Assembly (NCBI GenBank): GCA_024734495.1
Contig: JALMQS010000841.1
Coordinates: 977,626 to 1,041,625, forward strand
Direction of reading: 5' to 3'
From: Forficula auricularia
Taxonomy: Eukaryota > Arthropoda > Insecta > Dermaptera > Forficulidae
DNA: 64,000 nucleotides
Every line of letters begins with the position of its first letter. The stretch's first letter is position 1. The notes beneath the pieces are model-generated. The model was given only the letters and a program-made list of their open reading frames with translations, searched no databases and was not told where the DNA came from. Below are positions 3,921 to 61,792 of this stretch, piece after piece. Both the position numbers and the translations under genes were made by a program.

Positions 3921-3966
3921 CTAAATATTTCGAGAGCGCTTTCGGCATCTCTTCCTCAGTGGAAAC
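3921..3966 (-). ncRNA. Hammerhead-like motif HH1
   Basis: On the minus strand: CTGAGGA core, extra A, stem II closing with TCTC, then GAAA and TATTT. Stem I is weakened compared with HH2 and HH3, because TGG has become TAG. It is probably a decayed copy. Confidence 0.5.
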
Positions 3967-4720
3967 TGTGGGACCACACAATAGGCAAGTCAGTGAGTTA
4001 TTATTAATTACAGATGTCAAAAGGTACTCACCCACCTTCTAATTTACTAATATTAACATATTAATTAGCATGGTTTCCCATCTAGTCTGCTTATAAGTAT
4101 TTCAAATCAAAATTTCTAATATAATATATTCACAGAATTACATTAAAAAAATAATATATTAAGGATATATATATATTTCTATATATATAAAGTTTTATTT
4201 ACTATATAAGATTAATGAATTCTATTATTGTTTACTACATTGTTACCCATGTAAACAGTAAACAAACGGAAATTAGTTACTCTATTTCTTTTGGTCTCCC
4301 CAAATTTGGCCATTTTATTTCAATCAACTCAGATTTTTATATAAATATATCGAGTTTTTGTTTCTACTTCCTTTTCAAGATGATGGCTAAACAAGAAACA
4401 GGCTATTAGTTGGATGGAATTAAAATTGCATGGGTTTTTCTAACTTTGAAATAGTATTTGTAATTACTTCAGCCCCCCCCCCCAGTTCCCATACCCATTT
4501 TGGATAGTTTATTTTCTTTGTTAAATGTTTTACAGTGCTTAAAGGCTAACTGTGAAAGATTTGGTCCAAATTGGACAGAGTTTATTTAAAATTTTAGCAG
4601 GAAAGACCACTATTAAAGACAAACATAGAAAAACAATTAATATAATAATTTTTTATTGTTAAAGGATAAATAAATTGAATTGCTTCTTTCCAGTAATTTA
4701 TTTTATTATTCAAATGGTTA

Positions 4721-4766
4721 ATCCAAATATTTCGAGAGCGCTCTCGGCATCTCTTCCTCAGTGGAA
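4721..4766 (-). ncRNA. Hammerhead-like motif HH2
   Basis: Minus-strand order: stem I strand TCCA, core CTGAGGA, one extra A, GAGA...TCTC stem II, GAAA, short palindromic stem III (UA), U-U, then stem I strand TGGA. Every helix of a type I hammerhead is present. The motif is mirrored by HH3 in the other palindrome arm. Confidence 0.6.
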
Positions 4767-5129
4767 ACTGTGGGACCACACAATAGGCAAGTCAGTGAGT
4801 TATTACTAATTACAGATGTCAAAAGGTACTCACCCACTCCCCACCAATGTGCCGACCCCATCAGTTTGTACAGAACATTGATAAAAGCTTGATTATACAA
4901 CACACACATACATATATATATACATACATATACAAATTTAAATGAGATAACATACAAATATATACAATTATTTACATCTCATATGTATGTGTGTGTTGTA
5001 TAATCAAGCTTTTATCAATGTTCTGTACAAACTGATGGGGTCGGCACATTGGTGGGGAGTGGGTGAGTACCTTTTGACATCTGTAATTAGTAATAACTTA
5101 CTGACTTGCCTATTGTGTGGTCCCACAGT

Positions 5130-5175
5130 TTCCACTGAGGAAGAGATGCCGAGAGCGCTCTCGAAATATTTGGAT
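5130..5175 (+). ncRNA. Hammerhead-like motif HH3
   Basis: This is the plus-strand counterpart of HH2: CTGAGGA at 5135-5141, GAAA at 5163-5166, and stem I TCCA/TGGA at 5131-5134 and 5171-5174. Because HH2 and HH3 face opposite ways, a transcript from either strand would carry one sense motif. Confidence 0.6.
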
Positions 5176-6130
5176 TAACCATTTGAATAATAAAATAAAT
5201 TACTGGAAAGAAGCAATTCAATTTATTTATCCTTTAACAATAAAAAAATTATTATATTAATTGTTTTTCTATGTTTGTCTTTAATAGTGGTCTTTCCTGC
5301 TAAAATTTTAAATAAACTCTGTCCAATTTGGACCAAATCTTTCACAGTTAGCCTTTAAGCACTGTAAAACATTCAACAAAGAAAATAAACTATCCAAAAT
5401 GGGTATGGGAACTGGGGGGGGGGCTGAAGTAATTACAAATACTATTTCAAAGTTAGAAAACCCATGCAATTTTAATTCCATCCAACTAATAGCCTGTTTC
5501 TTGTTTAGCCATCATCTTGAAAAGGAAGTTAGAAACAAAAACTCGATATTATTTATATAAAAATCTGAGTTGATTGAAATAAATGGCCAAATTCAGGGAG
5601 ACTAAAGAAATAGAGTAACTAATTTCCGTTTGTTTTACTGTTTACATGGGTAACAATATTAGTAAACAATAATAGAATTCATTAATCTTATATAGTAAAT
5701 AAAACTTTATATATATAGAAATATATATATATCCTTAATATATTATTTTTTTAATGTAATTCTGTGAATATATTATATTAGAAATTTTGATTTGAAATAC
5801 TTATAAGCAGACTAGATGGGAAACCATGTTAATTAATATGTTAATATTAGTAAATTAGAATAAATAACAAATCTCAAGGTATGTTTAATAATTGTTTATA
5901 ACGTGTTATTAACGTAATGTTACGTCCGGTCTAAAGTAAAACCCTTTTAAATATAAAATATATGTGTGAAAATTTAAATAATTGTTTCCAAATTAAAAAA
6001 TTGATAAAAATTTTACATTTAATTTTTTTTTTCACGAGAATAGTAGATTTGTCGAATTTTTTCAAAATGAAGATGGAGGTCGTCAAGCTTTTGAGAATTT
6101 AGACTATCAAATAAAATGATATATATATAT

Positions 6131-10792: not shown

Positions 10793-12156
10793 TCTATATA
10801 ATAAAAATGAATTTCTGTTTCTTCGTAAGCGCAGATCAAATGCCTGGACCGATTTGGCTAATTTTTTTTTTTATGTTCGTAATAGTCCAATTCAGGTTAA
10901 TACGTAAAAAAAAATTGGAAAAGTTGCCCGGAAAATTGGAAAATTCAGGAAAAACTAAAAAAATTCAGGTTAGCCAACATAGCTTGCCAAACAATAAAAG
11001 AACTAAACTAGCAAAAAAAACAAGTGTTGGCGGCCCTGTTTGTAAGATTTTTGAGTGTCATTCATTCTCAATAGTTCTAACTACATTATCGTTGAATAAC
11101 AATTTAATACCGCAACAAAGATTTAAAAAAACTATCTATTTTTTAAAGTACATTTAAAACCAAAAATTTAAAAAAAATCGTCATGATAACTAAATTTTTG
11201 AAAAAGTTATGGTTATTTAAAAAAAGCTATTTTTTTCAAAAAATTCCTAACTTCTTTTGGGTTGGGTGAAAAAAATTTTAAAAAATTCTGAAAACCGTCT
11301 TTAATAGGGTAGAAAAAAATAAAAAAGTTTCAGCCAAGCTTTTGATTATATATATAGATGAAAAATATTTAATTTAAAATAAAATATGTTATTTAAAAAT
11401 CATTTTTCTTAAAAATACCCTTGGGAATCTCACCTCATCTTTTTTCTATTGTATTTAAGACCCTCAGCCATTTCAAAAGAACTAAGCCTTTTGGCTTTTG
11501 TATTCGAGCTCATTCATTCATTTCAATATTATTTATTTATTTCAAAGTTAATTATAAAGGATTATTGAAACTATACTAACTAAACTAACTGAAAGGAATT
11601 CATTAGCTTTTGGAATTTCTTTAAAAATATATTTTAAAGATTAAAACCAAAATTCAATTAGCCCGTAGAATTCTTTAAAGAAAACAAAATCATTTGAAAA
11701 CCCATTGTTATATTGTTTTGAAATCTAGGAAATTTCAGCCTATTGAAATTATTAAAAACCTATTTTGAGCCTAATTAAACCTAAATTTTCTATAAAATAA
11801 TAATAAACTTTAAAAGTTTATTATTTTTGATTTTTTAATTGGATAATTCTCCCCAAATGACGATTTTTACAAGACAAAAACTTTATTTTAATTTAAGTTG
11901 AAAGGTTCTTTTTGCCGAATAATTGAGTAGCAGAAGGGGACAATAAAATTTTGTCTTCTGCTGGAAAAATAAATTTTTTAAATTCATTCATAAAGAGATA
12001 TACTTTGTCCTCTTCATCAATCTATTACAATTAATTCACAAGAGTAGATATATGAAAGTGCTCTTTACACGTGTATAAAACAGCCAAGTGGGGGTCAAGA
12101 GGGCGAAGGTCTCTGGCTCAACAAAAGGCCCGCCGAAGGCGGCGGCTTGAAGCTAG
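10793..12156 (+). mobile_element. Helitron-like non-autonomous element 1
   Basis: The 5' end is TCTATATATAATAAAAATG preceded by A. The 3' end is a GC-rich hairpin (CCGCCGAAGGCGG) followed, 11 nt later, by CTAG at 12153-12156 and then T. This is the A|TC...CTRR|T geometry of Helitrons, without TIRs or a target duplication. No Rep/helicase frame is present; the 116-codon frame at 10807-11157 is Lys/Phe-rich and not recognisable. Confidence 0.6.
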
Positions 12157-16875: not shown

Positions 16876-17224
16876 AAAATTGAAATACAAATAGGTTATT
16901 ACTTGTTGTTTAAGTAGATGTATAATTATCTAAAAAAAAATACGTTTTGATTCTTTCAGTTTTAGTAATTTCTATTTTTACCATTTATGTTTTTCATCGA
17001 CGCTCAGTTTAAAAATAGATGTTCGTTCATGGCGAGATATTTCATTCAGTAAAACTCTACGTGGGTGGTGTTGGGTAGGTATTTCCTTCCTAAGGGGCAT
17101 GTGTCTAGCCTCCCCCTCTCTCCCAGCAAGATTTAAATTTAATTAATTAAAAAAATAAATAAACGAAAGTAAATTTACAAAATATCCTATTCCTATATTA
17201 TTAAATGAGCAATTCTTGTATATA
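16876..17224. other. Nothing recognised
   Basis: AT-rich DNA with a short GC-richer block at 17045-17125. No open frame with splice borders and no repeat match in this window. Confidence 0.4.
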
Positions 17225-17650
17225 TACCGGGTGAGTTTGTTTATCTTGAGACAGTCTTATAACTCAAAAACAATGCATTATATGGAAAAAAGTTACAAAT
17301 AAAAGTTTATTTATATCGAAGGGGGAAACTAAACTACGCTATTGTTTGTAGACGTAGAACAAGCTTTCAAGGGTATTTCAATGTCAAGTTCTATTTTTTA
17401 AATAGAACCATATATTTTTCTATACGTCTACTTTAATCTACAAAAAAAACTGAACAACTTTCATAAGAACTATTTTTTTATACGAAGTCAAATAAACAAA
17501 ATAAATGAATCAATTAGATCTAAAAAATCTTAATAATTAATTTTAACAATTGTTGAACTTAATTATCAAATAATAATTATTAAATAATTAATTATTAAAT
17601 CGAAAAGTCACAACAATGAAAATAAGGGTTTATAATGATATTAAAACTTG
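17225..17650 (+). mobile_element. Family A left arm, solo
   Basis: It starts at TACCGGGTGAG (17225) and runs through the whole arm to the beginning of the internal region, then stops. The right arm is missing. Confidence 0.75.
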
Positions 17651-21470: not shown

Positions 21471-21911
21471 CAATTTTTTTTTTTTTTTTAATATTAAAAC
21501 CAAAACTTATCTTTCTCCTATTCAAGGGATTATTTATTATTTAGAAAGTTAATAAGAGGTACTACTTAATTAGAAATTCAAATTTCATGATAAATCACTA
21601 TTTTATTGTTGGTCATTGTAGGCTAGAATCATTTAAAAAAAAAAAAAAAAAAAGAAATCAAACAGAATTGTTTTCTAAACCTTGTAAAAAAAGGATGCAA
21701 CCAACACGACTAAAATAATTTGACTTTTCAAAATAAAATAAATGAATAAATAAATAATTAATACAGGTTAACAATCTAGATCTAGAATAAGGCTTATACA
21801 TATCGTTATATTATAATTGGCTAATTATTATTATAATTTCCGTCAATAATTTGTATTAATTTGAAAGTTTATGACAGGAAAATAAGCACAAGTTTTTATG
21901 TCTGCCTTTTT

Positions 21912-21953
21912 TAAGCCCTGAAGAAGTCGGCAAAATCGACGAAACGTTGGCTG
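21912..21953 (+). ncRNA. Hammerhead-like motif HH4
   Basis: Order: stem I AGCC, core CTGAAGA (position 7 is free in hammerheads), extra A, stem II GTCG/CGAC, GAAA, C-G, U-U, stem I GGCT. The palindromic stem III of two pairs would need a dimer to form. Confidence 0.6.
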
Positions 21954-22613
21954 ATAAATAATAAAAGTCACACATAAAAGCTAAATTCTCTTAAAAAACG
22001 AAATCACCAGAATACTTTTCTAAACCTTTTAAAAGGGATGCAACCAACACGACTAAAATAATTTGACTTTTCAAATTAAAATAAATGAATAAATAAATAA
22101 TTAATACAGGTTAATAATCTAGATCTAGAATAAGGCTTATACATATCGTTATACTATTGGATAAATTCTCTTAAAAAAATAAAATCTCCAGCATACTTTT
22201 CTAAACATCCTGAAAGAGATGCAACCAGCACGACTAAAGTAAGTAATTTGATTTTTCAAAATAAAAAAATATTTTTTTTGTTGTGAGGTCAATGATCTAG
22301 ATTTAAAAGACTTATTTATACGTATATATATATATATGTATATATTATTTCAAAGAATAGGTTATATATACTTCTTTGACAAAAACTCTAATTAAAATGT
22401 TGATCACCAAACTATTAAATTTAACAATTTCACTATTTTACTCAAATAACAATATTTTCATAATTTACTTATTGGTGTTTGGTTCGAATAGCGGCCTCTT
22501 AACTATTAATATATCTAGATTTAAATAGGGAATATTTTCAATCTGTGCCTATAAGTGTTTGCTAAGAATGAATATTTATGGAATGACAAATATGCAAAGA
22601 AATTAATTTGTTT

Positions 22614-22653
22614 AAGCCTTGATGAAGTCAACAAAGTTGACGAAACGTTGGCA
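22614..22653 (+). ncRNA. Hammerhead-like motif HH5 in a dated insertion
   Basis: Stem I GCC/GGC, core TTGATGA (C3 changed to U), extra A, a perfect stem II GTCAAC-aaa-GTTGAC, GAAA, CGUU. The surrounding insertion is flanked by ATTAATATATCTAGA on both sides (about 22492 and 22737), a 15-bp target duplication absent from the second tandem unit. The C3 change would be expected to harm cleavage. Confidence 0.55.
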
Positions 22654-22925
22654 TAAAATAAAAAATACTTGCATAAGCTACTGTCCTTATTTCCCTACAA
22701 CAACTTATTTATTTAATCGATGGACATAAATAATCACATTAATATATCTAGAGTTGCTCCAAAAATATGAGAATACTTAAAATATGTACGTATATCATTT
22801 ATTGATATTGAACAGAGATCGATTTCACCATAATTAACTTCACCATCTATTCATTTCAAATATAAATAATACCTATATCGTTTTTTAAAATAAAAAATAT
22901 GATTGTTGACTTTTATCAATAAAAT

Positions 22926-23308
22926 TAAACAATCAATATTATTAATAATTAAATATTTGATTATTATTATTTGATAATTAAGTTGAATGATTGTTAAAAA
23001 TAAAATTTTTTTGAGATCTAATTGATTTAATATTTTTTTTTATTTGATGTCGTATAAAAATATAGTTCTTATGAAAGTTGTTCAGTTTTTTATGTAGATT
23101 AAGTAGACGTATAGAAATATATAGGTTTCTGTTTAAAAAACAGAACTTGACATTGAAATACCCTTGAAAGCTTGTTCTACGTCGACAAACAATGGAGTAG
23201 TTTAGTTTCCCCCTTGATATAAATAAACTTTTAATTGAAACTTTTTTTTTAATATAGTGTACTGTTTTTGAGTTATAAGACTGTCTCAAGATAAAAAAAA
23301 CTCACACA
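22926..23308 (-). mobile_element. Family A arm, solo, reversed
   Basis: Right-type arm ending 'gataaaaaaaactcacaca'. Terminal bases are changed from CTCACCCGGTA. The 103-codon frame on its minus strand is a chance frame of the arm. Confidence 0.75.
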
Positions 23309-23970
23309 GTAGTTATATTATTGGCTAAATTTTCTTAAAAATTGGAAATCACCAGAATACTTTTCTAAACATCCTGAAAGAGATGCAACCAACACGACTA
23401 AAGTAATTAATTTGATTTTTCAAAATAAAAAAATATTTTTTTGTTGTGAGGTTAATGATCTAGATCTAAAAGGTTTATTTATACATAAAAAATATATTAT
23501 TTCAAAGAATATGTTATATATACTTCTTTGACAAAAATACTAATTAAAATGTTGATCACCCAACTATTAAATTTAACAATTTCACCATTTTACTCAAATA
23601 ACAATATTTTCATAATTTACTTATTGGTGTTTGGTTCGAATAGCGGCCTCTTAACTATTAATATATCTAGAGTTGCTCCAAAACTATGAGAATTATTAAA
23701 ATACATCATTTATTCATAAATACTATGAATGTATACTATGAAATACTATGTTCATATTGAACAGAGATCGATTTCGGCATTTATTAACTTCACCATCTAA
23801 TCATATCAATTATAATTTCTTAACTATAAATATATCGTTTTTTTTTTAAATAAAAAATGTGATTGTTGACTTTTATCAATAAAATTAAACAATCAAAACA
23901 ACAATATCAACAAATAACAGTGAAATATAAATAAAATAAATATTGTGAATGTAGAATAACAACAACTTAC

Positions 23971-25552: not shown

Positions 25553-25603
25553 AAACTCAATATATTTCGGATTTATATTATATTAGTCCATCATCAGGAG
25601 TTT
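25553..25603 (-). ncRNA. Hammerhead-like motif HH6
   Basis: Minus strand: stem I AAACTC, core CTGATGA, extra T, stem II GGA...TCC, GAAA, stem III palindrome TATA, U-U, stem I GAGTTT (six perfect pairs). This is the best-paired stem I in the window. Confidence 0.6.
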
Positions 25604-25943
25604 ACCAAGGGCGGATCCAGGGGGGGGGGGCGGAGGGGCGACCGCCCCCATAGAGCACGTGCCCGGCAAAAAAAATTTGTAAAAAAAACATTAATATTTT
25701 TTTTTAATATTTTAAAATTGAAAATAAAGTTTTATGTTTGTGTGTGGGGGGCGGCGGCGTCTCTGACCCCCCCCCCCCCCCCGCTTGGACAATTCGATCG
25801 CGACACACTTTCGAATAAAAAGTAGATCTTATATACATCGGGCACCTTATATACATTACCCCCCTTATATACATTACCCCCCCCCCACAATTTTTGAATT
25901 GAAATTGTGATCGCACGTTCAAATATTATTAGTTTTCACCTGT

Positions 25944-25990
25944 AAACTCACCTGATTATGGACTAAATAATCCGAAATATATTGAGTCTG
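25944..25990 (+). ncRNA. Hammerhead-like motif HH7 (degraded)
   Basis: Mirror of HH6 in the other arm. The core reads CTGATTA (G8 changed to U) and stem I has two extra bases, while GAAATATATT is kept. G8 is a catalytic residue in hammerheads, so this copy is probably dead. Confidence 0.45.
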
Positions 25991-41126: not shown

Positions 41127-41182
41127 ATTATAATAGACTGATGAAAAGGGCAAAGCTCTCGAAACTATAGTCTCGTTATAAA
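41127..41182 (+). ncRNA. Hammerhead-like motif HH8 in a host intron
   Basis: Core CTGATGA, extra A, stem II near AAGGGC-aaa-GCTCTC with mismatches, GAAA, stem III palindrome CTATAG, GTC, then TCGTTATA, which pairs with the upstream TATAATAGA with one bulge. It lies antisense to the CRAL-TRIO gene, between exons 40857 and 42340. The tail 'ccagcagaagacacactctt' matches the tail of HH10. Confidence 0.6.
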
Positions 41183-41249
41183 TAAATTAAAAATTTATAA
41201 TTCCAGCAGAAGACACACTCTTTTATTGTCTCGTTTTTTTTTTTTGTTA

Positions 41250-41294
41250 AACCTCCTGATGAAGGGTTCATAGCCCGAAATATGTATAGAGATA
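41250..41294 (+). ncRNA. Hammerhead-like motif HH9 in a host intron
   Basis: Stem I CTC/GAG, core CTGATGA, extra A, stem II GGG-ttcatag-CCC, GAAA, TATGTATA. Following DNA ('ttttatttccactttgtgaa') resembles the outer arm of the 25500-26046 element, so both probably come from one family of ribozyme-bearing elements. Confidence 0.55.
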
Positions 41295-42184: not shown

Positions 42185-42339
42185 TATATCTTAGGAAAAA
42201 AAACTCCGATAAAAAGTGATTTTGAAGCGCTTACAATAAGAAATTGTAATATTTATTTTTTTCAATATTCTAAAATTTTAAAATTAAAAAAAAAAAAAAT
42301 TTTAATTCCAAAAGATCGATTATTATCTAATATTCTTAC

Positions 42340-45482: not shown

Positions 45483-46222
45483 TATACAGGGTCATAGGAA
45501 AGTCCCTTTAACCTGAAAATACTTGCGAACGGAGAGTGCTACAGCCATGCAAGTGAAGTAACGGTATAGTAAAGCGACTATGCCCGACCTAATGCAAACG
45601 ACACCAGCGCCCCTAGTGCCGAAATGTGGAAGTTAGCCATTGCAAATCAAAAACGAAAAGAGATAGAGCAAAATTTCCGATTAGAAAGTTTTAGAGCATC
45701 AATTAATTAGTACGAAACGATATTTGGTTTACACGGAAAGGATAAATTACTGCCTGTATCCAAAATCTATGCGCGACTGTTCTACTCTACATATTTACAT
45801 TTCGGAAATGTAGCAGTATGCAAATGCAGTTTGTGACTTTGTACTGTATCTGTAATGTTTGAAAACTTTAATTTCAATGCATTTAAAATTTTAGTTTAAA
45901 AGGTGTTGGCGCTCGCTTGATACAAACAACATAATTTTTGGGGTATACAGGCGCCAATTTATCTTATCCGTGTAAACCAAATATCGTTTCGTACTAATTA
46001 ATTGATGCTCTAAAACTTTCTAATTGGAAATTTTGCTCTATCTCTTTTCGTTTTCGATTTGCAATGGTTAACTTCCACATTTCGCCACTAGGGGCGCTGG
46101 TGTCGTTTGCATTAGGTCGGGCATAGTCGCTTTACTATACCGTTACCTCACTTGCGTGGCTGTAGCACTCTCCGTTCGCAAGTATTTTCAGGTTAAAGGG
46201 ACTTTCCTATGCACCCTGTATA
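45483..46222. mobile_element. Foldback MITE with TACAGGGTCATAGG ends
   Basis: 'gggtcataggaaagtccctt' ... 'cgaaacgatatttggtttac' is mirrored by 'gtaaaccaaatatcgtttcg' ... 'aagggactttcctatgcacc'. Arms of about 265 bp and a 200-bp loop. It abuts the next element at 46223 without a spacer. Confidence 0.85.
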
Positions 46223-47458
46223 TACCGAGGTGAGTTTTTTATCTTGAGACAGTCTTAAAACTCAAAAACAGTACATTATATGAAAAAAGTTTCAAATAAA
46301 AGTTTATTTATATCGTGGGGAAACTAAACTACGCTATTGTTTGTCGATCTAGAACAAGCTTTCAAGGGTATTTTAAGGCCAAGTTCTGTTTTTTAAATAG
46401 AAACCTATATATTTCTTTTTATATTTATAATCTCCAAAAAAAACTGAGTAGCTTTTATAAGAACTATTTTTTTATCCGACATCAAATAAACAAAATATTA
46501 AATCAATTAGATCTCAGAAAAAAACCATAATAATTATTTTTAACAATTATTCAATTTAATTATCATATAATAATAATCAAATATTTAATTATTAAATAAA
46601 TAATTTAATCATTTTCCGAAACTGTTCTGTGATATTCCATAGTATTATCGCAAGTTTTCTGAATGAATTCCAGTTCCAATTTCGTTATTTTTTCATCTTT
46701 CAGTTTCTTCGTACCCTTTACATTTCCTGATGTTTTTTAACATATTTTACAACACGATAAAATGAAGCTCGTGAGGGTGTATCCCTGTCAGGAAAACGCT
46801 CGGCATCCATTTCAATGGCAGCCCCATAACATTTCTTCCACATTCACCATAAATTATGACCATTTTAATTCTGTCTTCAACAAAAAATGCTCCATTTTTA
46901 TTATGGTAATACAATATAACTATCTACTGAATTGACACGAGAAATAAACTTTTTTAAAGTCAAGAATTTTAACTAGTTCTATTAAGTAGAAAATAATCTC
47001 TTAAATCTGAGTATAACGAAGTTTTAATATCATTATAAACACTTATTTTCATTGTTGTGACTTTTCAATTTAATAATTATTTATTTAATAATTAATTATT
47101 TAATCATTATTATTTGATAATTAAGTTGAATAATTGTTAAAAATAATTATTAAGGTTTTTTCTGAGATCTAATTGATTTATATATTTTGTTTATTTGATG
47201 TCGAATAAAAAAATAGTTCTTATGAAAGTTGTTCAGTTTTTTTTGTAGATTCAGAATATGTAAACAAATATATAGGTTTCTATTTAAAAAACAGAACTTG
47301 ACCTTGAAATACCCTTGAAAGCTTGTTCTAGGTAAACAAACAATAGCGTAGTTTAGTTTCCCCCTCCATATAAATAAACTTTTATTTGAAACTTTTTTCA
47401 TATAATGCACTGTTTTTGAATTATAAGACTGTCTCAAGATAAACAAGCTCACCAGGTA
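46223..47458 (-). mobile_element. Family A element, complete reference copy
   Basis: 1236 bp from TACCGAGGTGAG to CTCACCAGGTA, flanked by TA. The terminal inverted repeats are about 390 bp each. The middle (46600-47050, minus strand) encodes, through several stops and frameshifts, a helix-turn-helix-like fragment with 'MVIIYGECGRNV', a 'RFPDRDTPSR'-like stretch, and 'KLELEFIQKTCD'. The GRN...RFP.R..PS...F pattern resembles Pfam DUF4817, an arthropod HTH domain found at the N-terminus of mariner-like transposases. No DDE domain is present. Confidence 0.75.
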
Positions 47459-47859
47459 TATATATACGAGAATTGACTCGTTTAATATAAATAAGATAGG
47501 AATGAGATATTTATGTTAAACAGACCAAATAAATAAATTTTAAAGAATTTAAGAAAAAGTACTTGCTTACTGTAGAGTAAAGTACTTTAAAGTGTAATTT
47601 TACTAAAAACTTTATATAAGCTTTTTGGTGGACCTCAAGGTACTTAAATAGAATATTAAATTTGATCAAAATTCGTTAAGCCATTTTCAAGATATTTAGA
47701 AAAAACTAAAAAAGTACAGTAATAAAGTACTAATGTTTGTCACACGCGATATGCGTACCAAAAATTAATCGTAGACTTAATTTTGTTAAAATATCGATAG
47801 CAGGTATTCAATTTCATCCAAATCGATTGAGCCGTATTTTGAGAAACCGAATTAGTGTA
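47459..47859. other. No gene; family H fragment at 47800-47855
   Basis: AT-rich spacer between two family A elements. The block 'gtacagtaataaagtactaa' also occurs at 31690, so the family A copies at 31826 and 47860 share about 150 bp of left flank. Confidence 0.45.
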
Positions 47860-48990
47860 TACCGGGTGAGTATTCTTGAGACAAGTCTTGTAACTCAAAT
47901 ATGACAGTGGATAATATGGAAAAAAGTTTCAAATAAAAAGTTTATTTATATAGAGGGGGAAACTAAACTACGCTATTGTTTGTCGACGTAGAACAAGCTT
48001 TCAAAGGTATTTCAAGGTCAAGTTTTGTTTTTTAAATAGAAACATATATATTTCTTTACGTATTAATAATAATCTAGAGAAAAAAACTGAACAACTTTCA
48101 TAAGAACTACTTTTTTATCCGACATCAAATAAACAAAATATCACGAATCAATTAGATCTCAAAAAAAATCTTAATAATTATTTTTAACAATTATTCAATT
48201 TAATTATCAAATAATAATGATCAAATAATTAATTATAAATAAATATTATTAAATTGAAAAGTCACAACAATGAATATAAGTGTTTATAATGATCTTAAAA
48301 CTTCGTTATACACAGATTTAAGGGGTTATTTTCTCATTAATGGAACTATGCACTTAAAATTCTTGATTTAAAAAAGTTTGTTATCGTGGCAAACCAGTAG
48401 ATGATAGTTGCTATATTGCCATTACCATAGTAAAAATGGAGTATTTCTTTTGAAGACAGAATTGAAATGGTCTTAATGTTGGAGGAAGTGATGTTATGGC
48501 TACAATTGAAATGGATGCTCAAGCGTTTTTCTAATAAGAATACACCCTCACAAGCTTCAAAACTTTATTTAGCGTTTGTAAATCTGTTCAAAAAAATAAG
48601 GAATTGGAATTCAACCAGAAGACTTGCGATACACTCTGGAATGTCACAGAACATAGTCGGAAAATTAATTAATTATTATTAAATTATTTATTTAATAACT
48701 AATTATTTGATCATTATTATTTAATAATTAAGTTTAATAATTGTTAAGAATAATTATTATTTGGATTTTTTTGAGATCTAATTGATTTAATATTTTGTTT
48801 ATTTGATGTCGTATAAAAAATAGTTCTTATGAAAGTTGTTCAGTTTTATTTGGAAATTTAGGAATGGTAAAGAAAAATATAGGTTTCTATTTAAAAAACA
48901 GAAGTTGACCTTAAAATACCCTTGAAAGCTTGTTCTTAGGTCGACAAACAATGGCTTAGTTTAGTTTCCCCCTTGATATAAATAAACTTT
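47860..48990 (+). mobile_element. Family A element, truncated by an assembly gap
   Basis: Left arm from TACCGGGTGAG, internal region 48270-48660 (frames include 'KIRNWNSTRRLAIHSGMSQN', matching other copies), then the right arm up to the N run. The element probably ends inside or just after the gap. Confidence 0.75.
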
Positions 48991-50034: not shown

Positions 50035-50275
50035 AGAGTAAGCAGAATTTTTATATATTGAAGGAGACAATAAGTGAGTGTGTCGCTCTGCTGGAATTAT
50101 AAATTTTATTTATTTATAACGAGACTATAGTTCATAAATTAATTCCTGTGAATCCATTGTAATAGACTGATGAAGAGGGCAAAGCCCTCGTTCTATAGTC
50201 TCGTTATAAATAAATAAAGTTTACAATTCCAGCAGTAGACACACTCTTTTATTGTCTCCTTCAAAGTAGACTTTG
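50035..50275. repeat. Inverted repeat carrying hammerhead-like remnants
   Basis: 'gaaggagacaataagtgagt' ... 'ataacgagactatag' (50060-50130) is mirrored by 'ctatagtctcgttataaata' ... 'ttattgtctccttcaaa' (50193-50268). The tail sequence equals that after HH8. Confidence 0.75.
50156..50205 (+). ncRNA. Hammerhead-like motif HH10 (core damaged)
   Basis: CTGATGA, extra A, a perfect stem II GAGGGC-aaa-GCCCTC and CTATAGTC are kept. GAAA has become GTT, which removes catalytic residues, so it is expected to be inactive. Confidence 0.5.
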
Positions 50276-51412
50276 TTGGTAGATTAGATTTTCGAAAAAT
50301 CTTTAAAATCAGTAACTTCCTTTGGATGTTTGGCTCTAGAATTATTATCGATTAATAACATATTAAAAATTCAGATTTTCAATCCAACATTGCCATAATG
50401 TCAAGCAACCTTAAGAAAGGGTTTTTTACGAATGGGATTTCCAAGCCACCACTTCTTTATTATAATCTATTTTCTTTATCAGTATGAGGAAGTATTATAA
50501 TTGAACAGATCTCTGGTGATATTTGGTAGAAGGTAGTCATAATAGTTTAAAAATCGTCATGATCTCTAAAAATAGTTAAAGCTTCTTATATTTAAAATTT
50601 TATAAATATTGTTCAAACGGTTTAATAAAAAAATCTTAACTTCAAATCTTTTGCACAAAAACAATACTTCTATTACTACAGACAAAAGTCCTGTTTCTAT
50701 TTGGCAATGAAAATAAAATTGTATACCTACATTTAAGGGAAGTTGAATTTTTTTAGTGACACAAGTCAATACAAATTTTAATATTCAATTTAATTTTTAA
50801 TTTTAAATATTTTATAGAATTTTTTTTGTTTAGGTTTAAAATAAGCGACGTGCAGCTTCCATTTTCTTTTTATTTATCAATTCCCACTAACGTTTCGGCC
50901 ATTGGTTATGGCCATCTTCAAAGCGGGAATTAGTCAATATTTATATAAAAAAATTTTGATACACTTGTCATTAGTTAAAATTATATACAAGAAACATAAA
51001 TAGGATATATACAAAACTTTTTATAGGGTAGTTCGCCAGAAGGCCGAAAGATATAATGTTCTTAAGACTATAATTGTATTTTTTCCTTCAAGACGAAATG
51101 TCGATTTTATAGAATATTTTATTTATTTATTTTTATTTTAGAAAGACTCTATAGCACCCAAATATCCTCTATAAACAGCAAAGATTCTGACATATGGACC
51201 GTTTATTTTGAAAGTAGTATAAGTTCATATTTTTTAAGTGAGATATCACATAATTTGTGATTAATTTCGTGTAAACTTTTTATTTATAGATAGTTAATAT
51301 CTTTAAAAATGCTTTGTTCATTTAAAATTGCCCAATAAAAGAAATTTCGTAGCGATTAAGATACTAAACTTTAGACAAATTAACTTTTGAACGTTAGTTT
51401 TAACTTTTTCTT
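50276..51412. other. No gene recognised; contains HH11
   Basis: Unique-looking AT-rich DNA. The minus frame 50769-50566 has no recognisable domain or splice support. The only structured element is HH11 at 50881-50931. Confidence 0.45.
50881..50931 (-). ncRNA. Hammerhead-like motif HH11
   Basis: Minus strand: stem I CCCGCT, core TTGAAGA (C3 is U), extra T, stem II GGCCAT-aacca-ATGGCC, GAAA, CGUU, stem I AGTGGG. Two strong helices of six pairs each. The C3 change is the one doubt about activity. Confidence 0.55.
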
Positions 51413-51972
51413 AAAGCACTTTGAGCCGCGAAAATTAAATAATGTAATCAATAATTTCTTATGTTAATTCTACACATTTTGAAAATTATTTTATTATTTT
51501 TTGAAAAGAAATAATGAAATGAGCACCCGACGGGATTCGAACCCTTGTCTCTCTCCTTTAGCTGAAGAGCGCCTTTACCAAGTAGGCAACTGGTGATCCC
51601 ATCAGGAAAGATCTTTAGATTGAATATCATTTTTCCTTTTCGCGACTTTTTCTATTTAAAGTATAGTTACTTATGTTTTAGACAAACTTTCGTTTAAAAG
51701 TTAATTTGTTTAAAACATAACTATACTTTAAATAGAAAAAACCGCGAAAAGGAAAAATGACATTCAATCAAAGAACTTTCCTGGCGGGATCATCCATTGC
51801 CTAGTTGGTAAAAGCTCTCTTCGGCTAAAGGAGAGAGACACGGGTTCGAATCCCGTCGGGTGCTCAATTCATTTTTTTATTCAAAAAATAATAAAATAAT
51901 TTTCTAAATATGTAGAATTAAAATAAGAAATTATTGATAGATTATTTAACTTTCGCGGCACAAATTGCTTTA
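51413..51972. mobile_element. tRNA-like foldback T2 (560 bp)
   Basis: The arms match over about 270 bp. Each contains a complete tRNA-like half: minus 'cgacgggattcgaaccctt' (51527-51545) and plus 'acgggttcgaatcccgtc' (51840-51857). Each also has an A-box-like 'tgcctagttggtaaa' and the end 'cgggtgctc'. The 5' acceptor strand that should pair with GGGTGCTC is absent, so it is not a normal tRNA. Outer arms are homologous to T1 although the tRNA-like cargo differs. Confidence 0.8.
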
Positions 51973-53620: not shown

Positions 53621-55288
53621 TACAGTTCTCTTTCAACTTTCAAAGGAGCAACATCGTACCATTGATCCCATTGAAACCCGAACCTTTCTACCTGCAAACG
53701 AGCCCCTAGCGGCACCAGACACAGTGAGTGCCCCTTACAAGGAAGACTCACAAATAGTCAATGATTTTAGTATACTAACTAAAACTCCTCCAACGAAATT
53801 GAGCTATAAACAAATAGCAAAAAATATAATAAACCACAAAGGACATATTAGTACTAGAAGCATTAGGGGGTCCTTGGACCTTTTCAAAAAATCCAAGGAA
53901 AATCTTAAGAAAAATCGAAACAAGATGGCAAACAGTGAATATCAAAATCTTCTAAAAAAATTCGAAACTCTTCAAAAAGAAAACGAAAAACTTAGAAGTG
54001 AACTAAAAAAAAACTAAAGTGCATTTTATACACGAAAACCCGTTCGAGTGCCTCAGCCAGGAGGATGACATGGAGACAGAAGCTGAAGAACCTAACACAA
54101 AAAAACCCCGAAAGGAGGATAACATTGAAGCAAACAAGCCTCAAGACCTCAAACCACCTACAGCGCATCCTCAACACATGGACAAAATAAGGACTTCTAC
54201 AACCAAGCAGGTACAAGCTTTAAAAAAACCGAATAAAGAAACACGTGGCCAGCCAACAACACAACCTCCGACAACTCCCAAGCAAACTATCCAGAAGGAA
54301 GTAAAAGAAAAAATCCCTCCTATAAACATCAAAGGAGCTTCAACAGCAACAACCATAAATATAATGACAAAAAAAATTAAGGTAACTGACTTTAATATAA
54401 AAAAACATAGCGAACAAAATCATACTCTATTCGTAAAAACACTCGAAATTTACAAAAAAGCTATATATGAATTAAAAAATGTACAAATCCCATTCTACAC
54501 GTATACCCCAAAAGCAGAAAAAAATCAAACTTTTATACTTAAAGGTCTATCAAAAAATATAGATATCGAAGAGATCAGAACCTCCCTTCAAAACTTCGAA
54601 AATATTAAATTCATAAAAATTGAAAAATTTAAAACACCTTTATCGGAAAAAAAAATATGATCTCCCTCACTTATTAGTACAAATATCACCCGATAGCAAG
54701 CCCGAAGAGCTCCTCAAAATTAACTTCTTATATCACCACAAGGTGAATTGGGAAAAATTAAAAAAAACAGGCGTCATAATTTGTAGAAATTGCCAAGGCT
54801 TAAACCATTCCGCAATCAATTGCCAAATGGAATTCCGATGCTGTAAATGCAACTTACAACACCAACCAGGGGCTTGTAATATCAAAAAAGAGTCACCAAT
54901 TCCAAAAGAGCAACTTTTTTGCGTTAGATGTAACACTGCAGGTCACCCAGCATCTTATATGGGATGTAAAAAAATTCTAGAGCACCTAGATCGAGTAGAA
55001 GCAAAAAAAAAAGAAAACCTTGAAAAAAAACAAAATACATTAAGAACAATCCACCAGTACATAAACCCCAATAAATCATTTGCAGCAACTGTAAACAAAT
55101 CACAAACGCCAACCACCCAAAACATAAATAATACTAATACCTCCGACATTATTAATAATGACATCCTGATAGCTCTACACAACATTCCAATCACACTCCA
55201 AACCCTAAACGCAAGCATATCTCAAAATATACAAAACTTAACAGATATAATTACCAAATTAGTTAATGCCTCAAAACCCTCATCTTAA
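53610..55288 (+). pseudogene. LINE ORF1 (gag-like, RNA-binding), split by two +1 shifts
   Basis: ORF1 proteins coat the element RNA. The first in-frame ATG is 53925 ('MANSEYQNLLKKFETLQ', a short coiled coil), though the frame is open upstream to 53601. Frame 1 stops at 54015. The sequence continues one base ahead (54007-54660: acidic and Pro/Thr-rich linker, then an RRM-like region at 54520-54650), stops, and continues again one base ahead (54647-55288). The last part has three zinc knuckles (54782-54964): CX2CX4HX4C, CX2CX3HX4C and CX2CX4HX6C, the Jockey/I pattern. Each shift lies at a run of nine A (54005-54013 and 54647-54655). It ends 23 bases inside ORF2. Confidence 0.8.
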
Positions 55289-58200
55289 TCAAATAAAAAA
55301 ACTAAAAATAATTTCACTGAACGCTAATTCGATAGTCTCAAATCAAAGAAGACACAACCTCTTAACCTTATTAAAAAAATGCAACCCAGATATAGTGTTC
55401 ATCAGTGAAACTAAATTAAACAGTAGGCATATCATTGACTTTGCTGACTACTATTGCGAGAGGACAGACAGGCCCGATTCTATACAAGGTGGCGGAACAG
55501 CTATCTTAATAAAAAAAGAAATAAAATACAAACGAATCAATATCCCAAAATTAACCCATACAAAAATAATAGAAACCACTACAATCAAAATTTCATTAAA
55601 AAACTCAGAAAAACTATACTTAATTTCAGCATATGCAACCAACCACAATAGTATAGAATTCATAACTGAATTTGAAAACATTTTCAGCACATTAAACCTT
55701 GAAAACCTCTCAAATTATTTCATCATAGGAGGGGATTTCAATGCAAAAGACAATAGCTGGGGAAACCAGGTAAACAACCAAAGAGGAACCAAGCTCAAAA
55801 AATGGATAGATGATAACGACATTCAATTTAAAATAAAATTATATGCTTCTAAATTCCCTTCATTCCCAAGAACAAGCTCCTTCTTGGATTTACTATTCAC
55901 TGACGCAAGGTTAAAAATCCTAAACAAAATAGATGACAATCATCTCCCCCTTTTGGATTATGATAGCGACCACAATGCCCTAGTGGCTGAAATTGTTACA
56001 CACTCCACAAACACGTTAGAAATTGAATTAACAGAACAAAAATCAAATTTTATTTACAAAAATGCTAACTGGCACTCATTTGCCAATTATTTAAATCACC
56101 ATTGCAAAATCGAAATTCCCTCAGACTCTAATCTCTCAAACGAAGAAATAGACTCTAAAATTATCCAGCTAGAACAATTAATCCACACCGCAATTGAAAA
56201 AAATATTCCTAAAACAAAAGCTAAAAACTCAGTAGAATCCTATATCAACCCAAAAATAAAAAAACTTCAAAAATATAAAAGCTTTTTACTTAGAGAAATA
56301 AATAATTATTACCGAAACTGGTTAAATAGAGACACGGAAAATTTCAGACTACTAAAAGGTTTACTGGCAGATGTAAAAAGTCAATTGAAACAGGAATTCA
56401 AAAAATCCACAGATAAATATTGGAAAGAAAAAATCAAAAACATTCCATTAAACGACTCTCTCAACATGTTCCCTCAAATAAACCAGATCTTCAGAAAAAA
56501 ACACTATTCTGCCCTACCAAATGAAATTAAAATTCCAAAAGACAAGATACAATTAGTCACAGAGGCAAAAATTAATCCCCAAACAATAGACAAAGATGAA
56601 AATGATAATTTTGTAATATCAGACCACACTGAAAAACTAAACCTATTAGGAGCTCATTTCGCATCAATAAACATTCAAAATAAAGACATGGGGAAACCTT
56701 TCTTCAATAACATAATAGAAAGGGATACAAATCTTATAAAACAGGAAATGGACCTAGAAAGGGAAACAAAAGCCACTGTGTGTACCTTCTCCAGGCAAAA
56801 TAACTCGCTTGACCCTATCTGGGAAGAGGATTATTTCTTTACAAATGAAAATTCCGTAAAAGGTCTCTTCAAAAACTTAAACAATAAAAAATCCTCTGGC
56901 CCAGACAAAATTCCTAACATTGTTCTCAAACATATCCCAAAAAAAATTACTAAAACATATACAATACTATTTAATAACGCTATAAACAATAGATATTTCC
57001 CAAATCACTGGAAAAAGGCAAATGTGGTAGCTATTCAAAAAAAGAAAAACAATTGCACCAGTCTCTCGAATCTAAGGCCGATAAGCCTTCTCTCAAATGT
57101 GGGCAAAGTTTTTGAAAAAATCATTAATAATAAGTTAGTTGCCTTCTGCGAGGATAATAATATTATATCAGAATACCAATTCGGTTTCAAGAAAAGGCAC
57201 TCAACCATACATGCTATTTCAAAATTAACTTCAGATATAAACTGGGCCCTGAACAACAAAGAAAGCGTAGGGGCATGTTTAATAGATGTCGAAAAGGCAT
57301 TCGACACAGTATGGCATGAAGGCCTAATATATAAATTAATCAAAAAAGGTTTTAACAAAAATCAAATAAAAATGATTTGGAATATGATTGATGGCAGAAC
57401 TTTTGTAGTATCTGACAAAACAGAAGAACAATCTTTACGCTTTTATGTGAAAAATGGATTACAACAAGGAACAATTAATTCGCCTATCTTATTTAACATA
57501 TTCATTAGTGACTTGTTGAAATACTTCAATTTAAATAGCGACCCAAACATGAAAGCACTTGCTTTCGCGGATGACTTAATTATATATGTGTCAGGGAAAA
57601 AACCGTCCATCATACAAAACCATTTGCAAAATCTATTCGAAAAAATACACACTTTTTATGAAACGTGGAAACTAAAAATAAATACACAAAAATGTGAAAC
57701 GATTCTTTTTAGAACTATTCTCTCAAAAGGTAACTCAAGCCTAAGAAAAGAATGGAAAACTTTTCATATTAAATTCAACAACACCGAAATTCCACATAAA
57801 AATATAGTAAAATATCTAGGAATACATTTAGACAATTATTTATATTTTGACCTACATAGAAATATTCAATTGCGAAAAGCCAGGGCTGCATTTATGAGTC
57901 AAAAAAGATTGTTCTTCTGCAAGCATCTGGACCCAGAAATAAAACTGCAATGCTACAAACTATTGGTCAGACCAATAATAACTTATGGCTGCAATATTTG
58001 GTTCAATCAAAGTGCATCGGGCATGGAACAAATCCGAGTCTTCGAAAGAAAATGCCTAAGATCATGCTTAGGCAAACATAGATCTACACATTCGAACTTC
58101 CAACATTACATTAGTAATGAAAAAATTTATAACTTAGCCAAAATTAATAGAATAGACTGCTTTATGCTAAAATTAATAAGAAACCACTACTGCCAAGTTG

Positions 58201-58520
58201 CAAATGTTTTCGAAAACAGTCTAATATTCGGATCACTCTATCCGAACGATCAATATTTTGAAATAACAAAATCTACCGGATTTATCCCACCCGAAGCTTT
58301 TTTATTTTTGGATAATAAAGGATATATACAAGATGAAAACGGGATCCCCATCATCTATCATGTGTTTAGGAGAAAAAACAATAAAAGTATAGAATACGAC
58401 GCCCACCTAGATGGTTTGGACCCGTATAGAATATATAGATTTAATAGAGCCATCTCTGAAAAAGACAAGACTGAAAGGAAAAATATAAAAAAATACTGGT
58501 GGATTGAAAATTATCAATAA
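55266..58520 (+). CDS. LINE ORF2: AP-like endonuclease and reverse transcriptase
   Basis: 1084 codons, uninterrupted. The start ATG at 55266 overlaps the ORF1 end. The endonuclease occupies about residues 13-245, with the usual residues visible: Asn in SLNANS (19/21), Glu48 in SETK, Asp157/Asn159 in GGDFNA, and SDH at 234-236. The reverse transcriptase spans about 540-830: SSGPD (543-547), LRPISLLS (603), the first catalytic Asp674 in DVEKAFD, GLQQGTINSPILFN (731) and FADD (767-770). No RNase H or C-terminal zinc knuckle is seen. This suggests the Jockey group; the clade is uncertain. It is longer than classical Jockey ORF2 (about 900). All catalytic residues expected for target-primed reverse transcription are present. 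Confidence 0.95.
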   Translation: MPQNPHLNQIKKLKIISLNANSIVSNQRRHNLLTLLKKCNPDIVFISETKLNSRHIIDFADYYCERTDRPDSIQGGGTAILIKKEIKYKRINIPKLTHTKIIETTTIKISLKNSEKLYLISAYATNHNSIEFITEFENIFSTLNLENLSNYFIIGGDFNAKDNSWGNQVNNQRGTKLKKWIDDNDIQFKIKLYASKFPSFPRTSSFLDLLFTDARLKILNKIDDNHLPLLDYDSDHNALVAEIVTHSTNTLEIELTEQKSNFIYKNANWHSFANYLNHHCKIEIPSDSNLSNEEIDSKIIQLEQLIHTAIEKNIPKTKAKNSVESYINPKIKKLQKYKSFLLREINNYYRNWLNRDTENFRLLKGLLADVKSQLKQEFKKSTDKYWKEKIKNIPLNDSLNMFPQINQIFRKKHYSALPNEIKIPKDKIQLVTEAKINPQTIDKDENDNFVISDHTEKLNLLGAHFASINIQNKDMGKPFFNNIIERDTNLIKQEMDLERETKATVCTFSRQNNSLDPIWEEDYFFTNENSVKGLFKNLNNKKSSGPDKIPNIVLKHIPKKITKTYTILFNNAINNRYFPNHWKKANVVAIQKKKNNCTSLSNLRPISLLSNVGKVFEKIINNKLVAFCEDNNIISEYQFGFKKRHSTIHAISKLTSDINWALNNKESVGACLIDVEKAFDTVWHEGLIYKLIKKGFNKNQIKMIWNMIDGRTFVVSDKTEEQSLRFYVKNGLQQGTINSPILFNIFISDLLKYFNLNSDPNMKALAFADDLIIYVSGKKPSIIQNHLQNLFEKIHTFYETWKLKINTQKCETILFRTILSKGNSSLRKEWKTFHIKFNNTEIPHKNIVKYLGIHLDNYLYFDLHRNIQLRKARAAFMSQKRLFFCKHLDPEIKLQCYKLLVRPIITYGCNIWFNQSASGMEQIRVFERKCLRSCLGKHRSTHSNFQHYISNEKIYNLAKINRIDCFMLKLIRNHYCQVANVFENSLIFGSLYPNDQYFEITKSTGFIPPEAFLFLDNKGYIQDENGIPIIYHVFRRKNNKSIEYDAHLDGLDPYRIYRFNRAISEKDKTERKNIKKYWWIENYQ

Positions 58521-58960: not shown

Positions 58961-59033
58961 AATGGCGTAATGGCTAGAGCTAATGCCCTTAGTTCAAGAG
59001 TTCGTCAGTTCGATTCTAGGCAAGACGGTAATT
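58961..59033 (+). other. tRNA-like sequence directly 3' of the LINE
   Basis: 'atggcgtaatggctagagct' (A-box side) and 'cagttcgattctaggcaag' (B box AGTTCGATTCT). It is nearly identical to the reversed block 30698-30775 and continues family I. The start of the same tRNA-like sequence, more diverged, lies before the LINE (53601-53622). Confidence 0.6.
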
Positions 59034-59600
59034 TCTGGGAGCCCACTGATTATGATAACAAAATTTGGTTGTGTTTGCTCAAATGGCCTAGATTTTTATT
59101 TTTTGACCCCCTAATTTTGGCACCAGAAAAAAATAGTTTCGTTATTATAGGTTCATTTTATTGTATATTTCATTTTTCTTGTTTTTTTAGTTTGAAAATA
59201 TTATAATTTTAAATTTTACCCCCCCTCGTCCTCGTCCTCGTCCTCCTTAATTTTGGCTCGATATGCACCAAAATCTAATCAGCTCTTAATCTCAATGCAC
59301 CAAATCTACGTGGGAAATTTGGTTTTGATATTCAAACTAGTTTTTGAGCTAGTTCGTCCACAAAATTTGGTAACGCACGTACTAACAGACTAACAGACAT
59401 TTTGACAAAACAGTTATTATCTCGAAAAATATAATTTTTTCGATCTTCACTTATTAGAGCTTATTTGTAGACCGAAATGCCATGGTTTCGCCCAATTTTT
59501 TTAATCAAAATAGTTTTAGACGTTTTTGAGATATTTCGAAAAAAAGAACCAAAAAACACTTTTTTCATTACAATACTTGACCATACCCTGTATGGTAAAG
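59034..59600 (+). mobile_element. Family C element, copy 4 (left part missing)
   Basis: It starts in the middle of the family at 'ctgggagcccactgattatg' and ends 'gaccataccctgtatggtaa'. Contains an extra A/T-rich block (59110-59210) and a (CCTCGT)n tract at 59224-59243. Confidence 0.75.
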
Positions 59601-60194
59601 TAAAAAATTCACTTTATACAAAAATACTCAGTAATACAAAATAATGTCAATATAATCAGACCCAGATGAACTCGAAGACATATACTCCGTGAGTCCGGTC
59701 ATAACAATTGACAATACTATATATAATTCAATACAATACTCGATGAGTGTTCATTTTTGGAGTGCATTTCTTTAGATAATCTCAATTTAGAGACTTAGTG
59801 CGTTGAATTGGGAAAGGATGTTCTCTTCTCTTGGCGGTCGTTTGTTCGCCGCAGGCTTTCTTTCTGCTGTTCTGGTCAAGCATTCCTTCGTAATGAAGCC
59901 CCTTTAGTTGTTTACTTGAACCTACGAAACTTACCAGCTCGAATAATTAATCAAATACTATCCTAAAAACTAAAAAGTTCATTTAAAATGTCTTCTCATT
60001 TATTTTTCATTCCATTTAGTTAATGATTAATTGATTATTCTAATGAATGATAGTCTAATATTGGGTTCGTCAACCTACGGCCTGCGGGTCTGATCCGGAC
60101 CTCAAGGAGATTTCATTCGAACCTAAAACATTAAAACATTTATATAAAAATTTAAAAAACAGTATTTAAGAAAAACTTTTAAATCAACAAAATT
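59601..60194. other. No gene; hAT-like fragment at 60066-60125
   Basis: 'gttcgtcaacctacggcctg' followed by 'cgggtctgatccggacc' resembles hAT/SPIN-type ends; no partner end is seen. The rest is unassigned; the less AT-rich patch 59815-59900 has no splice-bounded open frame I can support. Confidence 0.35.
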
Positions 60195-60835
60195 ATTTTT
60201 TTACTTTACCATACACGGTATGGTCAAATATTGTAATTGTAATCGTGCATGAAAAAAGTTTTTTTTTTGCTTCATTTATTCGAAATATCTCAAAAACGGC
60301 TGAAACTATTTTGATAAAAAAAATTGAGCGAAGCCATGGCGTTTTAGTCTATAAAAAGTCTTAATGAGTGAACATCGAAAAAATTATATTTTGCGAGGTA
60401 TTAATTATTTTGTCAAAATGTCTATTAGTTAATACGTTACGAAATTTTGTGTACCTACGCTCTAGCTCAAAAACTAGTGTGAATATCAAAACGAAATTTT
60501 ACATGTAGTTTCAGTGATTTTGGCTGAAATCGAACCAAAAATTAAGAGGGAGGTACAAAATTTCGCATAAGCACTCTATCTATTCGAGCTTTTGAAAATT
60601 GACTCACTATGTTAAATTGATAGTGACTAAAAAGAGGGGGGGGGGGGTTCAAAAATATTTTCAAACAAAAATCGAAAAAAGCTGACATTTATCCTAATAG
60701 AATAGACTCATAATTAAAAAGAGATAATATTAATTGCTAATAGGCCCAAAATTAAGAGGGGGTTCTTAATTATAATATTAAATATAAGAGAGGGGCCAGA
60801 TGTATGGTAAATTTATGTGGATGGCCAAATCAGCT
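60195..60835 (-). mobile_element. Family C element, copy 5, reversed and decayed
   Basis: From 'actttaccatacacggtatg' to 'tggatggccaaatcagctta'. More diverged than the other copies, with an 11-bp G run near 60637. Confidence 0.7.
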
Positions 60836-61792
60836 TATTTTTTAATACTATAATTAAAAATGTTTATTTCACATTTTTAAAATTTTTTATTAAATTATAA
60901 AAAAAATGTGATCTTGTTTGTAATGATAGTCAAATCCTATTTTAATTGATTACAGACCCTGAAGAGAGGGAATAGCCTCCGAAACGTCTGTTTATGAATA
61001 AAAAAATAGTATAAATTATCTTCTTCTTTTTTGGACTGCCTCATCAATATCCACTCAATTATAAAATTATATTTTCAATATTTTTTATAAAATTAAATTT
61101 TCAAAATTTATAAAATTTATTTATAAATTGAAAAAAATACACTTTTTCCGACTATAATTGGCAACTAAGACAGAGTTGTATGGTAATTGTAAAGAGAGGT
61201 CGCGAACTCTTCTATAGAATATAATTTTTCATTAATATTTAGTTATTTAAAGCATGTAACGTGAGGTTTCAAGACTCAGTGTGTGGCATCTCTCAGTAAC
61301 TTGCTGAGGTTCAGTTTAGCTAAGCCAACGTACTACGCCTTCTATTGTTCTTAATTGAACCTATTAATCTTTTTTTTATTAACAATTCTATCCAATTTTC
61401 TAGAGGAGTCTCTCCTTTTTTTGGCTCAATTTAAACGTTTAAAAGTAAAGTAGAAAAAGTAAAAAGAAGGAAGTATACGATAAATCAATTAGTTTTCCAT
61501 GTCGTGTTTTATTGAATATTTTTTCTCTTTTTTGTTTTTTACTATAATTGAACATTGATTGAATTTTCTACATGTTTCTACAGACTCACTAAAACGATAT
61601 CATCTTATTTTTTTATCTAAAAAAGAAAGTAATATTTTACTTTTACTAAACTTATTTAAATCTACAATATTGTCTATCTCTTTTAAATGAAAAGATCAAT
61701 GAGAACTAAAATTCTTATTAGAGTTTTCACCCGAAATACATGCTTTTCGCTTCTCTAAATAACCACAATAAGAACATTTTCAGCCGAGGGGT
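60836..61792. other. No gene; contains HH12
   Basis: AT-rich. The only recognisable feature is the hammerhead-like motif and its A-rich tail at 60948-61020. No coding exon supported. Confidence 0.45.
60948..60998 (+). ncRNA. Hammerhead-like motif HH12
   Basis: Core CTGAAGA, stem II GAGG-gaatag-CCTC plus one unpaired C, GAAA, CGUC, and a downstream strand TGTTTATG that pairs imperfectly with the upstream ATTACAGACC. Here the extra base is on the 3' side of stem II. GUC is the canonical cleavage triplet. Confidence 0.55.

Follow-up and report, generated by a model that had tools for sequence, protein, structure and literature searches.

We found 13 copies of a hammerhead ribozyme motif, nearly all of which carry one additional base in the catalytic core, in a 64,000 nucleotide (nt) stretch of the genome of Forficula auricularia (contig C751, 977626-1041625, hereafter the window; genome size 1.06 Gb). 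The presence of a dozen-odd extra-base motifs in the window was confirmed by the scans described below. They are very probably hammerheads of type I order, with a core one base larger, which originated in the terminal repeats (pLTRs) of Penelope-like retroelements (PLEs). In the window they survive as short copies which contain no coding sequence, some of them head-to-head, and the carriers of the motif are Penelope-like elements. The enlarged core is common to several PLE families and is not demonstrably the property of one lineage.

The motifs were sought with a strict descriptor (CTGANGA, 0-2 extra bases, stem II of at least 3 base pairs (bp), GAAA, a short stem III, H, and stem I of at least 3 bp); stem III hairpins with loops were also permitted in the descriptor scans. 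Five complete motifs were obtained in the window, with core starts at 4761(-), 5135(+), 21918(+), 25597(-) and 41256(+), and each of these had exactly one extra base. The same scan of 60 dinucleotide shuffles gave four matches in total (mean 0.067, maximum 1), none of them with one extra base. When one core mismatch was tolerated the window gained 22619(+) and 50921(-), both of which read UUGANGA with U at position 3, plus a low-complexity match at 20722, while 30 shuffles gave a mean of 1.23 matches and a maximum of 4.

A covariance model was then constructed from 22 motifs, five from the window and eight from a set of other stretches of the same genome (L001-L015). At E <= 10 it produced 33 matches in the window. 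Eleven of these had E <= 0.064 and spanned 3916-60996. Of the 22 weaker matches we counted two, 11983-12027(-), with E 0.44, and 25945-25989(+), with E 1.4, because both align to families present in the window; the other 20 (for example 18327 at E 0.48 and 16373 at E 1.3) had similar scores and no relatives in the window and were dropped. The total of 13 copies is accordingly made up of 11 significant matches and two decayed relatives, each of which is non-significant alone. The initial annotation had listed twelve motifs at 3921..60998, so that its span stands and its number was within one of ours. It had also described, in nearly all copies, a single additional A or U between CUGANGA and stem II, and this was borne out in 12 of the 13: by reading, nine have A at this place and three have U, while in 60952-60996 the residue is not clean. 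The Rfam hammerhead models gave no match in the window at E <= 10, nor any in 21900-22700, the site of the two best-scoring copies. Genome-wide, Rfam Hammerhead_1 gave none among the 73 of 118,820 candidates which were scored, and no control genome gave a match either, so that this result carries no weight.

The extra base was as constant outside the window. Stretches L001-L015 comprise 143,243 nt, mostly from small contigs (15 of the 20 places sought exist in the genome, one of them short). The strict scan of this material identified 17 motifs without core mismatch, and all 17 had one extra base although 0 and 2 were equally permitted; of the four one-mismatch motifs shown, three had one extra base and one, L013 5757, had none. 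The covariance model gave 40 matches at E <= 0.1 in the same stretches, from which eight of its own 22 rows had been taken. We also examined the core alone, in the window and L001-L015 together (207,243 nt), where 61 core-GAAA combinations were present, a core with two GAAA being counted twice. Stem II could reach 4 bp or more with 0, 1, 2 and 3 extra bases in 0, 23, 2 and 1 combinations, respectively, and 3 bp or more in 2, 37, 9 and 5, while 17 combinations paired in no register. The proportion with one extra base was 38%, compared with 12% in a swapped control.

For the genome as a whole we counted a subclass defined by the exact pattern CTGANGA-N-GG..CC-GAAA, with the backward pattern as control. 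The extra base was present in 55,763 exact copies (backward control 6) and absent from 502 (backward control 7; letters were shown for 6 of the 502). The extra base was U in 31,017 copies (backward control 2) and C in 170 (backward control 1), leaving 24,576 copies in which it is A or G. Because the pattern with no extra base, which covers nearly all extra-G cases, totals only 502, the extra base is A or U in approximately 99% of copies, and by reading it was A or T in 98 of the 100 places, out of 55,763, for which letters were shown. Copies of the GG..CC subclass with U3 numbered 2,264 (backward control 19), approximately 4% of the C3 copies. In the Rfam-type consensus core A9 is joined directly to stem II. 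With 55,763 copies against 502, that is not the arrangement found here, and we have therefore filed the motifs as PLE-type variants and not as consensus-core hammerheads.

The link to PLEs, which the initial annotation had proposed, was established from the protein side. The genome was searched for GIY-YIG domains by a procedure blind to the ribozyme; 150 matches were scored of 3,423 candidates and 30 loci were fetched. In 24 of the 30 a same-strand motif was located 304-983 nt downstream of the GIY-YIG domain, always with one extra base, although many of these loci are near-identical copies and so do not amount to 24 independent cases. The core was exact in 22 of the 24 and read CTGTTGA in the other two (L020, at 2648-2694, and L021), where A6 is changed to U, the stems are sound and the motif again lies downstream of the domain. 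Contig C563 contained a head-to-tail PLE array with a period of 2,908 nt and a motif between two reverse transcriptase (RT)/GIY-YIG frames. One of these frames, in L046, is an 858-amino-acid open frame with an RVT_1 domain (1.6e-16) and a C-terminal GIY-YIG domain (8e-6). PLE coding remnants in L001, L007 and L009 were followed on the same strand by a motif 394, 221 and 441 nt downstream, respectively. Named relatives of the PLE protein came from insects and other animals. The carriers elsewhere in the genome combine an RT and GIY-YIG frame, tandem and head-to-head copies and a hammerhead in the terminal repeat, which are traits of PLE membership. Viral contigs scanned for relatives of the PLEs yielded 54 loci (25%-49% identity over RT stretches), which were taken, from the match table alone, to be other reverse transcriptases.

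At least six stem-loop II types were observed beside PLE coding sequence. The initial annotation had proposed ribozyme-bearing retroelements with an enlarged core, which is upheld, and had assigned them to one lineage, which is not: besides the diversity of stem-loop II, matching letters place only six of the 13 window motifs in a family observed next to PLE coding sequence, and for the remaining seven the shared core is the sole tie to PLEs. The first family (GAGA/UCUC) includes window copies 3916..3966(-), 4718..4768(-) and 5128..5178(+) and also the L009 motif 2939(-), which is the one 441 nt downstream of the PLE remnant. Copy 3916 has an extra A and AUAU as stem III, and its stem I is damaged, being reduced to 1 bp; 4718 and 5128 are complete in core and stems and stand head-to-head. 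The second is the CUAUAG family, which is found beside GIY-YIG coding sequence (L031, L042) and is represented in the window at 11983, 41131 and 50160, each time with an extra A. In 41131..41176(+) the first stem II pair is broken, in 50160..50199(+) GAAA is lost, and 11983..12027(-) is a decayed copy which aligns to both of these, reads UUGAUGA and has also lost GAAA.

Among the remaining seven, 21911..21956(+) has a complete core, an extra A, stem II GUCG/CGAC, stem III ACGU and stem I AGCC/GGCU. The nearby copy 22612..22657(+) has C3 changed to U, an extra A and stem II GUCAAC/GUUGAC. Copy 25553..25604(-) has a complete core with an extra U, stem III AUAUAU and a stem I of 8 bp, and belongs to the family of a 113-nt tandem unit in L006; head-to-head with it stands its decayed relative 25945..25989(+), in which G8 is changed to U and the extra base is again U. 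The core of 41249..41292(+) is complete, with an extra A and stem II GGG/CCC. In 50881..50928(-) C3 is changed to U, the extra base is U, and stems II and I are 6 and 11 bp. Copy 60952..60996(+), of the GGAGG family, has lost both the extra base and the stem II register. Core and all stems are intact in five of the 13 copies. The motifs have the traits of the minimal PLE hammerhead, namely type I order, a conserved core and a stem III which is missing or no more than a short palindrome, and these traits are likewise complete in five of the 13.

Stem II differs among the families and remains paired. Within the CUAUAG family the same pairs are altered on both strands between related copies: stem II is GAGGGC/GCCCUC in L031, GAGGAC/GUCCUC in L036, GAGUGC/GCACUC in L042 and GAAGAC/GUCUUC in L022 and many others. 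The initial annotation had made its proposal depend on compensatory changes of this kind, and stem II was indeed altered on both sides between related copies. In the 22-row alignment the covariation score was 0.754, compared with 0.159 +- 0.040 when shuffled and a maximum of 0.289 when slid, and for stems I and II in an alignment of 12 rows it was 1.015 compared with 0.229 (the L007 row of the latter is one base short and misaligned in stem I). The rows of both alignments were mostly picked by scans which demanded core and stem pairs, and the paired percentages are therefore partly a matter of construction. Stem I had no part in the selection of the stem-loop II types, and it reached at least 3 bp in 16 of 28 types, compared with a mean of 14% and a maximum of 33% with swapped flanks; in the CUAUAG family stem I next to the core is only 1-2 bp. 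Energy folding of 11 window copies gave a stem II probability of at least 0.55 in seven.

The short palindromic stem III noted in the initial annotation was seen throughout the motifs scanned as a self-complementary, loopless run. The run is ACGU, AUAU or longer (ACUAUAGU), AGCU in L020, and AUAUGUAU with a G-U pair in 41249. In a single motif with ACGU or AUAU stem III cannot close, and the longer runs allow a hairpin of 2-3 bp at best, whereas between two motifs pairing is possible along the entire run.

Several results weigh against the derivation from PLE hammerheads or against parts of it. Eight of the 13 window copies are damaged in core or stem, and no PLE coding sequence was found within the window. 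Four of the 30 GIY-YIG loci (L016, L017, L030 and L037) had no motif, L036 had one solely on the opposite strand, and L034 had only a U3 motif with a stem II of 3 bp. Two of the five measures of the 22-row covariation test were barely or not above the shuffles: pairs changed on both sides numbered 3 compared with 2.7, and further pair types 11 compared with 8.3, a value reached in 21 of 500 shuffles. In the 12-row alignment of stems I and II pairs changed on both sides numbered 7 compared with 5.7. Energy folding gave stem II a probability of only 0.04-0.07 in 41256 and 0.13-0.14 in 25597. For the L006 tandem it predicted a fold other than the double hammerhead.

The arrangement of neighbouring copies was determined for 150 motif places, namely the first 100 of the 55,763 and 50 further extra-U places. 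Within 600 nt of each other there were 27 pairs, of which 23 were head-to-head, two tail-to-tail and two in the same direction. Such head-to-head copies form near-perfect palindromes in L003, in L011 and at 4649-5247 of the window, with the motif 56-132 nt from each outer end. Head-to-head inverted copies with junction palindromes are described as the commonest arrangement of Penelope and attributed to self-priming (PMC3846280). Direct repetition was also encountered: L006 contains at 2394-2698 a 113-nt tandem array of 2.7 copies at 97%, each unit of which has a PLE-type hammerhead motif, and at G000:C5:1273763-1274125 there are three U3 motifs on one strand, approximately 169 nt apart.

We propose that tandem PLE copies would be transcribed by read-through and that two neighbouring motifs in such a transcript could pair via stem III to give a double hammerhead, perhaps aided by the PLE protein, in which the extra A or U may form a bulged residue between A9 and G10.1. 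The predicted cut after H17 would release RNA of unit length. If copying sets out close to the 3' end and in many cases halts early, it would leave short dead copies which retain the motif, and the high copy number of the motif would be due to its place near the 3' end, where copying begins. While the anatomy described above was observed, the cutting, the formation of dimers and the help from protein are inferred. Reviews describe the motifs of PLEs as devoid of helix III and possibly active as dimers (PMC7761336, PMC6466107).

It is also conceivable, though in our judgement unlikely, that the motif acts in cis as a signal for reverse transcription of the PLE or for the binding of protein, its hammerhead fold being kept for the sake of shape and cleavage being of little or no importance. 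In a study of the Anolis PLE, hammerhead mutants were without effect on insertion in vitro, no reads were detected which started or ended at the cut site, and cleavage required added protein (PMC11167929); and the loopless stem III would make a single motif a poor ribozyme on paper. Constancy of the core in our alignments proves nothing on this point, since the core was used in selecting the rows of both. The argument against a mere shape signal comes from the loci fetched blind to the ribozyme, where the exact CTGANGA..GAAA core was found on the same strand downstream of GIY-YIG in 22 of 30, many of them near-identical copies. It is improbable that some of the short copies represent non-autonomous retrozymes, in the form of small tandem units which circularise via the hammerhead and are moved by PLEs. 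The L006 array, with a motif in its unit, and the three same-strand U3 motifs on C5 have this appearance, and published metazoan retrozymes consist of tandem hammerhead units which are considered likely to be moved by PLEs (PMC7761336, PMC7229834). However, same-direction pairs made up only two of the 27 close pairs, only one retrozyme-like array was read, its 113-nt unit is below the published 150-300 nt, and the core of the retrozyme-like units is of the PLE type.

Chance matching in AT-rich, repeat-laden sequence was considered as well. The G+C content of the window is 22%-35% per 4-kb step, and the window is rich in repeats and palindromes. CTGANGA alone is indeed slightly in excess (23 observed, 13.8 expected). 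Five strict matches compared with a shuffled mean of 0.067, 55,763 genomic copies compared with 6 for the backward pattern, and covariation scores above those of the shuffles leave chance a negligible probability, and on the shuffles and backward-pattern controls it was rejected. Origin from the pLTRs of PLEs remains the explanation we favour.

PLE hammerheads and their action as dimers are already known, and what is added here is a well-counted variant of the core. Lunse, Weinberg and Breaker reportedly showed in 2017, as their title has it, that PLE hammerheads cleave as dimers. The minimal PLE hammerheads (Cervera and de la Pena 2014; Lunse et al. 2017) resemble those described here in type I order, in a missing or palindromic stem III and in their place in the pLTR. 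They are also alike in the proposed action as dimers and in being dispersed, by the thousand, over the genomes of many animals (PMC6155905, PMC7761336, PMC6466107). The hammerhead of the Anolis PAc PLE has the same place in the pLTR of a tandem element with a GIY-YIG and RT frame but differs in that its cleavage needed protein (PMC11167929). Rotifer terminons, which are derived from PLEs, also have a hammerhead motif close to their 3' end but are joined to telomeric repeats, none of which were seen here, though no search was aimed at them (PMC6431247). Metazoan retrozymes resemble the L006 array as tandem units with a type I hammerhead, but in the published ones the motifs are of the classical type I with loop-loop contacts and the units measure approximately 150-300 nt (PMC7229834, PMC7761336).

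With respect to the enlarged core itself, no description of a constant extra base in PLE hammerheads was found in those parts of the literature within reach of our search, which did not extend to the main 2014 and 2017 papers. A viroid hammerhead shares with the motifs here the one extra core nucleotide but belongs to a viroid RNA and not to a retroelement. This natural hammerhead with an extra catalytic-core nucleotide, the subject of a 2001 paper by de la Pena and Flores according to its title, is said to have an A between A9 and G10.1, where U reportedly gives faster cleavage and C or G poor cleavage, which would match the preference for A and U seen here. The same extra A would occur in vertebrate PLE ends that read CTGATGAAG..GAAACG. 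It is possible, although we are more inclined to doubt it than to accept it, that the PLE hammerheads here form a separate structural class, defined by a tenth core residue (A or U only) which is retained in at least six stem-loop II types observed next to PLE coding sequence, by a stem III which is self-complementary and has no loop, and by an acting form which would be dimeric or protein-bound, the extra base being a selected part of the catalytic core rather than tolerated. A single subclass with 55,763 copies carrying the extra base and 502 without it provides very extensive natural data on a single unusual hammerhead core. Since these counts are so lopsided and the base is nearly always A or U, the role of the residue is open to direct test, both in dimers and in the presence of the PLE protein. 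The Rfam hammerhead models overlook the window motifs, and any search which forbids an extra base would do the same.

Other features of the window were recorded in passing. A 98-bp tandem satellite occupies 38312-40470 (22.1 copies at 96%), and a related lone stretch is located at 26216-26389. A long interspersed nuclear element (LINE) at 54007-58520 contains an endonuclease and reverse transcriptase frame (55263-58520) with two open frames ahead of it, and its named relatives are mostly from bees and wasps. Within 51522-51864 tRNA-like matches just below the Rfam cut-off occupy both arms of an inverted repeat, on opposite strands. A dispersed repeat of approximately 400 nt with TTAATAATTATT-type runs was found in ten or so places of the window, including 8-427, 1271-1878, 17180-17649, 22931-23320, 31668-32450, 33222-34606, 41785-42191 and 46219-48990.

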